Positions 24,752 to 27,761 of a stretch of DNA of 64,000 bases are shown in pieces. Source of the DNA: Acidimicrobiia bacterium (GTDB lineage Bacteria; Actinomycetota; Acidimicrobiia; Acidimicrobiales; Acidimicrobilacustridaceae); assembly GCA_020832495.1 (NCBI GenBank), contig JAFIEP010000086.1, positions 1 to 64,000 of the forward strand, read 5' to 3'. Below the pieces are notes generated by a model, which was not told the origin of the DNA, made no database searches, and was given only the letters and a program-made list of their open reading frames with translations. Numbering within the stretch: the first letter of the stretch is position 1; every line of letters starts with the position of its first letter. The position numbers were made by a program, and so were the translations under genes.

Positions 24752-25576
24752 TCACGGCTCTGCACCGTCGTCGGTGTGCCGGCGGCGACGGGCCAGTTCG
24801 AACAGCAGGATCGACCCGGCCACGGCCACGTTGAGGCTCTCCAGCCCACCGGCCATGGGGATGGCCACCGTCTCGTCGAGACGCTCCGCCAGCGCCGGGT
24901 CGATGCCGTGGGTCTCGTTGCCGAGCACCAGCACCGTCCCCCGCCGCCCGGCTGGTCGTCGCATGGCCTCGGGCGCGTCGTAGGGACGTCCCCCGGCATC
25001 GGCCCCCACGACGTGCAGGTCTCCCAGACCCTCCACGAGGTCGTCGATCGACACCCCCACGACCACCGGGAGTCGCAACAACGAACCGGCGGCTGCCCGA
25101 ACGACCTTCGGGGCGAACAGGTCGGTACTGCCGGCGGTGGCAGCCACCCCGGCCACACCGGCGCCCTCGGCGCTGCGCACCAGCGTGCCGGCGTTGCCGG
25201 GGTCGGCGACACCGCAGAGCACGAGCCCCGGGTGTTCGCCGTCGACGGCGCCCAGCACGTCGACGAACGAGGGCGTCGGTCGAGCGGCCACCGCCAGCAC
25301 GGGTCGTGGGGCGACGGCATCGCTGAGCGCACCGAGGACGCCGGGGCGGACCGTGCGGACCCGGCACCCGGCGGCGATGGCCACCGACACCGCCTCAGCC
25401 ACCTTGGGGTCGTCGCCCTCCTCGGCGAACACCACCTCGAGCTGTGCCCCGCTGGCCACCGCGTCGAGCACGACGGTGGGTCCTTCGAGGACCAGCACGT
25501 TCTCACCACGGCGCACGTCGGGGCGCGCCAAGAGATGGCGGACCCGCTGCAGCTCGGGGTGGCGCGGACCGATCAG
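24752..25576 (-). CDS. SpoU/TrmH-family rRNA methyltransferase (TsnR-like); probable CTG start
   Basis: About 274 residues. SPOUT motifs: [17 protein letters not shown] (motif 1), [15 protein letters not shown] (motif 2) and [17 protein letters not shown] (motif 3). An N-terminal L30e-like substrate-binding part includes [16 protein letters not shown]. Family members usually begin with an xRHPxLQRxRxLL element; here [19 protein letters not shown] is coded just before the first standard start (TTG 25531), leaving CTG 25576, which overlaps the rplT stop as CTGA. Mycobacteria also carry tsnR between rplT and pheS, so a 23S rRNA 2'-O-methyltransferase is likely, site unknown. Confidence 0.85.
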
Positions 25577-25965
25577 GCCGACTCGCTCACCGCTTCGGCA
25601 TTGGCTGCGCCCGGCGCATGCTCCTTGGCCGTGGCCACCAGCGCGGCGAACGCCGCCGGCTCACGAACGGCCAGGTCGGCCAGGATCTTGCGGTCCACCT
25701 CGATCTCGGCAGCCCGCAACCCGGCGATGAAACGGCTGTAGCTGATGCCCTCGGCGCGACAGGCGGCGTTGATCCGCTGGATCCACAGCTTACGGAACTC
25801 GCCCTTCCGGGCGCGACGGTCCCGATGGGCGTACTGCAGCGAGTGCATGACCTGCTCGTTGGCGGAGCGCCAGGAACGGCTCTTGTTGCCGTAGTACCCC
25901 TTCGCTCGCTCGAGCGTCACCCGACGCTTCTTCTTGGCGTGCACAGCGCGCTTGACACGGGCCAT
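25573..25965 (-). CDS. rplT: 50S ribosomal protein L20
   Basis: A 130-residue protein that binds 23S rRNA early in assembly. It starts [15 protein letters not shown] and has the conserved [37 protein letters not shown] and [17 protein letters not shown]. It is slightly longer than usual through an Ala-rich tail. ATG 25965 has AAAGGAG 6 bases upstream; a GTG just before is not preferred. It is the third gene of the infC-rpmI-rplT operon. Confidence 0.97.
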
Positions 25966-26038: not shown

Positions 26039-26233
26039 TCAGATGCCGAGCTGGCGGCGGACGGCGTCGCGGTTGGCGGCGTCCACCTCGCCGACGCCGC
26101 GGAGGCGGCGCTTGCGGCGGCTCGACTTCTTCTCGAGGATGTGGCTCAGGTTGGCCCGGCGGCGGACGATCTTGCCGGAGCCGGTGACCTTGAAGCGCTT
26201 GGCCGCGCCTCGGTGCGTCTTCATCTTGGGCAT
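26039..26233 (-). CDS. rpmI: 50S ribosomal protein L35
   Basis: A 64-residue, very basic protein of normal length: [20 protein letters not shown], then [20 protein letters not shown] and a tail ending VRRQLGI. ATG 26233 has GGAG 6 bases upstream (GGAGACCTCC). It lies 52 bases after infC and 73 bases before rplT. Confidence 0.97.
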
Positions 26234-26285
26234 GGAGGTCTCCATCGTTTCGGTGCGGGCGGACCCGCACTCGGAGGCGGGCCCG

Positions 26286-26966
26286 CTACTGCTGCTGTTC
26301 GGCGGCGGTGGGCGTGGTGTCGGTGCTCGCGGGAGGAGACTCGGGAGCGGGTGGTGTCGCCGCCGGCGCACTGTCGGCCTGCGGGGCCGGGGCTGGCGGT
26401 CGAGCGGTTCCCTCGTCGGAGCGACTCCGCTTCTTCGAGCCCGACTTGCGGTCCGGTCCGAGCACCATGGTCATGTTGCGGCCGTCGAGGCGGGGGTAGG
26501 TCTCGACCTTGCCCACCTCTTCCACGGCCTCGGCCACCTCGTCGAGGATCTTGCGACCCAGCTCGGGATGCTGTGTCTCGCGACCCCGGAACATGATGGT
26601 GATTTTGACCTTGTGGCCCTCACCGAGGAACTTGGCAACCTTCTTCGTCTTGGTCTCGAAGTCGGCCTCGCCGATCTTCGGTCGGTACTTCATCTCCTTG
26701 ACCGAGACGTGAGCGGCGTTGCGCCTGGATTCCTTGACCTTCTGGGCTGCCTCGTACTTGTACTTCCCATAGTCCATGATGCGGACCACCGGAGGGGAGG
26801 CCTTGTCGGCCACCTCGACGAGATCGAGTCCCTGCTCACGGGCCAGGTTCAGCGCTTCGGGCAGCGGCTTGATACCGAGCTGCTCCCCGTCTCGGGCGAT
26901 GACCCTGACTTCGCGGGCCCGGATGCGGTCGTTGATCCGTGCTTCGTTGTTCGACGGCGGTGCTAT
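26286..26966 (-). CDS. infC: Translation initiation factor IF-3, non-canonical ATA start
   Basis: 226 residues. IF-3 prevents subunit joining and proofreads the start codon. The N domain reads [20 protein letters not shown] and [20 protein letters not shown], then [17 protein letters not shown]. The C domain has [20 protein letters not shown] and [14 protein letters not shown] Pro/Ala/Ser-rich tail of about 45 residues follows. An in-frame TGA stands 9 bases before the ATA, and no ATG, GTG, TTG or CTG exists before the N domain. GAGGAG is 9 bases before ATA. ATG 26813 would remove the whole N domain. Rare start codons are a known self-control device of infC. Confidence 0.9.
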
Positions 26967-26983
26967 GACCCGTCACTCCTCAT
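26963..26983 (-). CDS. Six-codon upstream frame (MRSDGS) whose stop overlaps the infC start
   Basis: ATG at 26983 opens six codons ending in TAG, which shares two bases with the ATA of infC. Its own GGAG (in AGGAGGAGC) is 9 bases upstream. Such a stop/start overlap could feed ribosomes to the weak ATA by re-initiation. Translation of this frame is inference. Confidence 0.35.
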   Translation of the reverse strand: MRSDGS

Positions 26984-27190
26984 CAAGCGCAGCTCCTCCT
27001 CACGGCACTACGGCGGGTATCGCCCGCTCCGAAAAAAGGAGGAGCGGACGCCGGGAGCCGACGTCCGCGACGGCCTCGTCGAGGCCGCTTCAGTCATCGA
27101 CCCGGCGCACCGGCGCACTCACCTGGCGGTGGGAACGCTGTGGCCGGGTGGGGGCCCGAAGGCCCACGCTTCCGGTCAGTTGTCCTGAGC
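26967..27190 (-). ncRNA. Structured leader of the infC operon with alternative hairpins
   Basis: About 220 untranslated bases between a TACGAT box and infC. On the minus strand, in order: a UUCG-capped hairpin (GGGCC TTCG GGCCC near 27155-27168), GGCCTC-GAC-GAGGCC, and CCGCTCC (27047-27041) pairing with GGAGCGG (27030-27024) around a T6 loop. The pyrimidine run GCTCCTCCT (27045-27037) is also perfectly complementary over 9 bases to AGGAGGAGC (27000-26992), the ribosome site of the short upstream frame. The two pairings exclude each other, which suggests a translational switch. A ligand (IF-3, L20 or other) is not known. Confidence 0.5.
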
Positions 27191-27196
27191 ATCGTA
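27191..27196 (-). promoter_or_regulatory. TACGAT -10 box, candidate infC operon promoter
   Basis: TANNNT hexamer upstream of the long infC leader. No good -35 match was found at 16-19 bases. Transcription would start near 27184 and give a leader of about 218 bases. Confidence 0.3.
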
Positions 27197-27305
27197 GCAG
27201 CGCCACTACATGACGCGCCACCGAGCCCCGCACACCGCGCCGGGACGTCGCCCCACCCAGCGGCCTCTGGTAGACAGGGACTCCCCAGTCAAGGAGATCC
27301 GACCG

Positions 27306-27761
27306 ATGAGCCTGTGGACCCCCGGCGGCGAGGTGCCCGTCGATCGCAGTGGCCAGCAGTCCCCCCAGCCCGGCCCCGCCGCCGGACCCGAGGCGGTCGC
27401 GCTCAGCGACGAACAGCTCGAGGCGCTCGGCATCGACCCAACCCAGCTCACCGCCGAGCAGCGGGCCCAGGCCGAGCAAATGGTGGCGCAGCTCGCCGAG
27501 AGCCAGGCCCGCATCGCTGCGACGCCGGCTGCCGACCTGGTGGCCAACCACGCCATGGGCCTGTACGAACTGGCCGCCATCAAGCTGACCGCCTCCGACC
27601 CACCGCAGCTCGACGAGGCCAAACTGGCCATCGAGGCCCTGCGGGCGCTCGTCGATGCCGTCGGCGAGCAGTTGGGTGAGGCCACCGAGACGCTGACCCA
27701 GGCGCTCAACGCCGTGCAGCTCGGGTTCGTCGAGGCGAAAGAGGCTGCTGGGCAGGGGTGA
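27306..27761 (+). CDS. Small helical protein, DUF1844-like
   Basis: A 151-residue protein. After a Pro/Gln/Gly-rich start, two helical regions follow: SDEQLEALGIDPTQLTAEQR and HAMGLYELAAIKLTASDPPQ with DEAKLAIEALRALVDAVGEQ. The second resembles DUF1844-type proteins (helix with PPxLxxAxxAID-like spacing), which I state with low confidence. ATG 27306 has AAGGAG 9 bases upstream and is preferred to upstream starts. It is transcribed divergently from infC and stands alone. Confidence 0.7.
   Translation: MSLWTPGGEVPVDRSGQQSPQPGPAAGPEAVALSDEQLEALGIDPTQLTAEQRAQAEQMVAQLAESQARIAATPAADLVANHAMGLYELAAIKLTASDPPQLDEAKLAIEALRALVDAVGEQLGEATETLTQALNAVQLGFVEAKEAAGQG

Follow-up and report, generated by a model that had tools for sequence, protein, structure and literature searches.

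In Bacillus subtilis, the binding site of ribosomal protein L20 in its leader RNA is located at the junction of helices H1 and H2, and binding leads to the formation of a terminator (PMC6097659). Two elements that imitate the 23S rRNA site, an AA dimer and two G-C pairs in succession, are common to the known L20 leaders (PMC7247131). The B. subtilis-type leader has been placed in the Firmicutes (PMC6097659) and in the Firmicutes and Thermotogales (PMC3766115). For Mycobacterium tuberculosis, a long infC 5'UTR over-represented with respect to the gene was reported (UTR/CDS ratios of 2.6 and 4.9), and the B. subtilis L20 case was mentioned as an analogy for this leader (PMC3207917). A second kind of control is represented by the infC gene of Streptomyces, which has an ATC start and IF3 autoregulation (PMC5472188). 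In the open-access literature searched, we found no published L20-type structure in Actinomycetota.

Here we analyzed a stretch of 64,000 nucleotides (the window) from a member of the class Acidimicrobiia, in which Pfam searches on the encoded proteins identified the minus strand at 27190-26967 as the leader of the infC-rpmI-rplT operon (Table 1), the position 5' of these genes that is occupied by the L20 leader. The closest IF-3 proteins were approximately 70-80% identical to that of the window, and the relatives used for comparison belong to the class Acidimicrobiia, none having been returned from a second species of the genus. The whole leader was more stable than its shuffles (fold energy z = -2.78), and our results make it likely that it is a divergent bL20 autoregulatory attenuator. 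Beside the leader, a divergent frame on the plus strand (27210-27761, around MSLWTPGG) had no Pfam match; in many relatives its start-like sequence is found again in reverse orientation 5' of the leader, and the frame may be a conserved neighbor.

Table 1. Features of the infC-rpmI-rplT leader and operon in the window, listed in the direction of transcription.
Feature	Position	Strand	Basis
Extended -10-like promoter box TGCTACGAT	27191..27199	-	Conserved TAnnnT (-10-like box 27196-27191) before AAG
G-AAG, proposed AA dimer of the L20 site	27169..27172	-	AAG invariant in 46/46 aligned class leaders (partly by construction)
P1 hairpin, one U-C mismatch in the window	27151..27167	-	Double-sided changes at 4/5 pairs
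P2 hairpin	27100..27149	-	Double-sided changes at 6/9 pairs; R1 match
Small hairpin CGGCCTCGACGAGGCCG between P2 and P3	27071..27087	-	In the minimum-energy fold
P3, intrinsic-terminator-like hairpin GCGGACGTCGG-CTC-CCGGCGTCCGC plus U-rich tail UCCUCCUUUUUU	27032..27068	-	Terminator scan; conserved core
Local hairpin CCGCTCC-N10-GGAGCGG	27024..27047	-	Sequence; 5' arm overlaps the P3 base
Shine-Dalgarno region of the mini-ORF	26992..27000	-	Sequence complementary to 27045-27037; no class-wide conservation of the pairing
Mini-ORF TTGATGAGGAGTGACGGGTCATAG	26963..26986	-	TAG overlaps the infC ATA start; same arrangement in most ATA-start relatives
infC (IF-3)	26286..26966	-	ATA start codon 26966-26964; Pfam IF3_N and IF3_C; alignment of relatives
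rpmI (bL35)	26039..26248	-	Pfam Ribosomal_L35p; coordinates are the stretch scanned, not the exact start
rplT (bL20), presumed ligand	25573..25965	-	Pfam Ribosomal_L20

The conserved element spans positions 27174-27096, upstream of the 9-base pairing on which a preliminary description of this leader had centered, and the parts follow the order AAG(C/U), hairpin P1, a single C, helix P2, a terminator-like hairpin (27068-27032) and infC. P1 is the hairpin with a UUCG loop that had already been pointed out, GGGCC-UUCG-GGCCC, present at 27165-27152. P2 is formed by ACCCGGCCAC (27149-27140) on its 5' side and by GUG-C-GCCGGGU (27110-27100, with the C bulged at 27107) on its 3' side; in the relatives its consensus reads ACCYGGYCAC..GUG-C-RNCYRGGU, with ACC/GGU closing the helix and the bulged C on the 3' strand. 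In the alignment of 46 class leaders (A1), pairing was kept in 95.5% of the pair cells, a value to be read knowing that pairing had a part in setting the P2 register at extraction, which favors the pairs near the P2 base, and that upper P2 was scored at that step for consensus sequence and not for pairing. Double changes occurred at 10 of the 14 pairs, summing to 47 double-changed cells versus 11.6 in shuffles (0 of 500 shuffles as high), and pairing fell to 30-53% in the control in which the partners were slid by 1-3 columns. At the P2 pairs in alignment columns 46-93, 49-89 and 52-85, C-G and U-A were swapped in several lineages, and the same helices were recovered by an unguided consensus fold. 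The idea of a regulatory RNA akin to the L20 leaders in this actinobacterial operon is borne out by this covarying structure; the compensatory changes that the preliminary description had proposed to look for in homologous leaders are strong, but they lie in P1 and P2.

The element shows the hallmarks of an L20 leader. An AA dimer stands 5' of the first hairpin, within an AAG as constant in the other Actinomycetota (30/30 leaders) as in the class (Table 1), an invariance that is partly by construction because the AAG was required by the leader extraction. Two consecutive G-C pairs are found at the base of the second helix, C-G being present in 45/46 and 46/46 of the class leaders and the two pairs in 30/30 and 30/30 of those from other Actinomycetota, the latter counts also being partly by construction. 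As in the structure line of RF00558, the Rfam family of the L20 leader, the two helices are joined by one base and the second one carries a one-base bulge on its 3' strand. As the AA dimer and the G-C pairs are invariant or nearly so, bL20 is the most likely ligand of the window's leader, the mimicry of 23S rRNA being judged from its published description; we propose the near-invariant CC/GG pairs at the P2 base as the second L20 element.

Upstream of this element, a TAnnnT sequence was found 14-45 nt before the AAG in 65 of 66 leaders, mostly at 22-27 nt and at 25 nt in the window. A sigma-70 consensus scan by itself found no promoter; the -10 box rests instead on its conservation. From this box, transcription is likely to start near 27184, that is, upstream of position 27030, the limit that the preliminary description had set for a start compatible with its proposal.

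According to that proposal, GCTCCTCCT (27045-27037, minus strand) would pair either locally or with AGGAGGAGC (27000-26992), at the Shine-Dalgarno site of the mini-ORF, switching the translation of the mini-ORF and infC, with L20 or IF-3 making the choice. The two segments are indeed perfectly complementary over 9 bases, and the minimum-energy structure of the leader includes their long-range helix. In the window this helix surpassed about 97% of dinucleotide shuffles (p ~0.03, 60 shuffles), only mildly above chance; moreover, the leaders L088 and L012 show helices at a similar location right after P3, although their sequences differ. The relatives as a group do not follow this pattern: in 64 of them that carry the mini-ORF, the best helix between the upstream leader and the mini-ORF Shine-Dalgarno site had a mean of 14.05 versus 13.61 in shuffled leaders (median p 0.62), so that class-wide conservation of the pairing was rejected for showing no excess over dinucleotide shuffles, and a shared compensatory pattern was absent. 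In addition, the local hairpin competes with the base of the terminator. This 7-bp hairpin (CCGCTCC/GGAGCGG) does exist at 27047-27024; its loop, however, comprises 10 bases (TCCTTTTTTC) and not just the T6 assigned to it, and the T-run belongs to the terminator-like hairpin P3. Given the lack of excess across the class and the position of the L20-type element upstream, we consider it improbable that the 9-base pairing is the key switch.

The P3 stem-loop extends over 27068-27044 and its U-rich tail continues to 27032. Its terminator score was 22.4 in the window against a shuffle mean of 4.6, its conserved core reads GTCGGCTT..CCGRCG and its lower stem covaries. Thus, a sequence-predicted intrinsic terminator is placed between H2 and infC, as in L20 leaders, with an imperfect U-run that in the window begins 6 bases past the stem. 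Terminator-like hairpins 3' of P2 are in excess across the leaders, scoring higher than almost every shuffle in 33 out of 66. The feature is not universal in the class: some lineages lack it and carry instead a hairpin near the ribosome site of infC, possibly representing a translational version of the control. Five leaders (L064, L072, L076, L077 and L081) had no terminator-like hairpin with a U-run, and in several of them a CTTGC is complementary to a GCAAG beside the infC ribosome site. A search for antiterminator pairing among P2, the P2-P3 linker and P3 gave no segment pair significant versus permuted partners (best p values of 0.067 and 0.115).

On the other hand, the beginning of infC has features of its own. 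In the class relatives this gene starts mostly with ATA and in some cases with ATC, and in most of the ATA-start relatives the ATA is overlapped by the TAG stop of a mini-ORF, approximately 5-8 codons long and preceded by a Shine-Dalgarno site of its own, an arrangement that is absent in the ATC-start relatives and partly automatic, as it results from an ATA followed by a codon starting with G. Similarly, the residues RSD of the mini-ORF peptide follow for the most part from the infC Shine-Dalgarno sequence. A non-canonical infC start accompanies the known cases of IF3 autoregulation, and the mini-OR­F lying over the conserved AUA suggests a separate layer of IF-3 control on infC. Carried to its extreme, this reasoning would make IF-3, and not bL20, the regulator, the AUA/mini-ORF overlap serving translational autoregulation and the upstream RNA being a passive leader. 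The presence of ATA and ATC starts throughout the class, together with the ATC start and IF3 autoregulation of Streptomyces (PMC5472188), is consistent with such a view, which nevertheless leaves the covarying P1 and P2 and the match with the L20 leader unexplained; as the bL20 and IF-3 layers can coexist, we regard an exclusive role of IF-3 as highly unlikely.

The distribution of the element was followed with two motif models, R1 and R2. R1 matched the window once at significance (27174-27096, 54 bits, E 1e-12) and, at E <= 0.01, the infC leader of 62 out of 79 Acidimicrobiia loci, many of which are its training sequences. About one fifth of the infC loci tested in the class are without a detectable motif; R1 found none at E 0.1 in L024, L029, L031, L033, L037, L041, L045, L047, L049, L054, L056, L060, L063, L066, L073, L074 and L080, in which we read the motif as lost, diverged or replaced. 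Genome-wide, R1 had matches in at least 64 of the 198 Acidimicrobiia genomes scanned, a first look in which only a few candidates per genome were scored, and the 35 in-class matches whose surrounding DNA was fetched (the window's included) were all directly upstream of infC-rpmI-rplT. The eight weaker matches from other classes whose loci were inspected (E 6e-4 to 0.0095) were all away from infC and were treated as chance. Named actinobacterial leaders were matched by R1 in Nonomuraea (28.1 bits) and Tsukamurella (22.3 bits). Of the 68 infC leaders from other Actinomycetota, 46 carried the descriptor AAG-hairpin-CACC..GGU, which did not occur in the shuffles. In examples from this group (L167, L183, L189, L199 and L201), a terminator-like hairpin before infC was read by eye.

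RF00558 itself gave no match in the window up to E 10 and no credible match in 41 close relatives, and Rfam searches of the window and the Acidimicrobiia relatives at gathering and relaxed thresholds returned nothing relevant. Among 198 Actinomycetota genomes, RF00558 had matches at E <= 0.01 in 43 (best 3.9e-13), many of them at the infC leader, and its curated cut-off was passed by one. The window does not reach this cut-off, and for this reason we call its leader a variant of the kind rather than counting it in the curated family. R2, trained on 30 Actinomycetota leaders outside the Acidimicrobiia and on no Firmicutes, ranked Firmicutes L20 leaders first, at the position of RF00558 (Anoxybacillus, 34.6 bits, E 4.5e-5; Enterococcus, 25.5 bits), and its matches at E <= 1 in 36 Acidimicrobiia loci numbered 27, of which 25 coincided with the R1 motif. 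As R2 gave only 11.1 bits to the window's own motif and RF00558 was silent there, the window is linked to the L20 leader through its relatives. The best explanation for these data is that an L20-type leader is widespread in Actinomycetota, where it goes without detection by RF00558.

The Rfam family RF02830 (Scr1601) corresponds to the infC leader of Streptomyces: full-length matches of 184 bits were obtained at L189 and L242, and at these loci (293-499 and 273-496, respectively) they coincide with the infC leader plus its terminator. Among 149 Actinomycetota genomes, only 3 scored over the cut-off of the family, and these belong to a single genus-level group; in the window, the family gave neither a match nor a score over the curated cut-off; the same core is present in its Streptomyces members. 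Following the Rfam label of this homologue, the conserved RNA could be taken for a trans-acting small RNA, in line with the full-length match and with the detection of Scr1601 as an expressed small RNA, as cited in PMC8388888. However, in the loci examined the RNA is encoded on the sense strand immediately 5' of infC, an attenuator is expected to leave a short RNA that ends at the terminator, and the S. ambofaciens homologues are located in UTRs (PMC8388888). A role in trans is thus hardly credible, and the "sRNA" label of Scr1601 should probably be changed to leader.

Taking the bL20 attenuator as the preferred reading, transcription would begin near 27184 and the AAG-P1-C-P2 segment would copy the two-part bL20 site of 23S rRNA, namely the AA dimer and two stacked G-C pairs. 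Free bL20 in excess would bind this segment and hold P1 and P2, allowing P3 with its U-rich tail to form and to stop transcription before infC-rpmI-rplT; once newly made ribosomes have absorbed the bL20, RNA polymerase would read through, possibly with the help of an antiterminator pairing. The AUA start overlapping the mini-ORF would provide infC with a further layer, conferring sensitivity to IF-3. More tentatively, bL20 attenuation of this operon might be ancestral to Firmicutes and Actinomycetota, the Acidimicrobiia having added the mini-ORF/AUA switch, which would let termination-reinitiation and the IF-3 level determine the output of IF-3 independently of L35 and L20; we see this as a possible but doubtful scenario. 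The present results extend the range of the L20 leader over much of Actinomycetota in a form that Rfam misses, and the L20-type reading explains Scr1601 and offers a testable account of the long mycobacterial infC leader. With this range, ribosomal protein feedback on the infC operon would be common to two large phyla and not a narrow invention.

Compared with known systems, the window's leader is closest to RF00558 of B. subtilis and other Firmicutes, which in Anoxybacillus and Enterococcus reads AAGaAGAAGC-accc-GCUUCU-C-gCCU..Gc-a-guuCAGGc, followed by a terminator. Both share the infC-rpmI-rplT operon, the AAG, H1, one linker C, an H2 closed by two G-C pairs ([A/G]CC..GG[U/C]) with a one-base bulge on the 3' strand, and then an intrinsic terminator. 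They differ in P2, which in Acidimicrobiia runs GC-rich and uninterrupted through the site of the RF00558 internal loop, in the bulge, mostly C in Acidimicrobiia and A in RF00558, and in the mini-ORF overlapping the infC start, which is a feature of the window's leader. Scr1601 has in common with the window's element the AAG-P1-CACC..GGU and the terminator, although it is filed as an sRNA and has a longer internal part. The L20 r-leader candidate of Deltaproteobacteria (PMC7247131) also carries the AA dimer and two consecutive G-C pairs, on another scaffold and in another phylum. With the L20 operators of the Escherichia coli rpmI-rplT genes, the window's leader shares the presumed ligand bL20 and the mimicry of 23S rRNA (PMC10931766), whereas those operators lie inside the operon, act on translation through a pseudoknot and leave infC uncontrolled. 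Finally, the AUA of the window is of the same type as the non-canonical starts used for IF3 autoregulation in E. coli (ATT) and Streptomyces (ATC), but unlike these it overlaps the stop codon of a mini-ORF that has a separate Shine-Dalgarno site.
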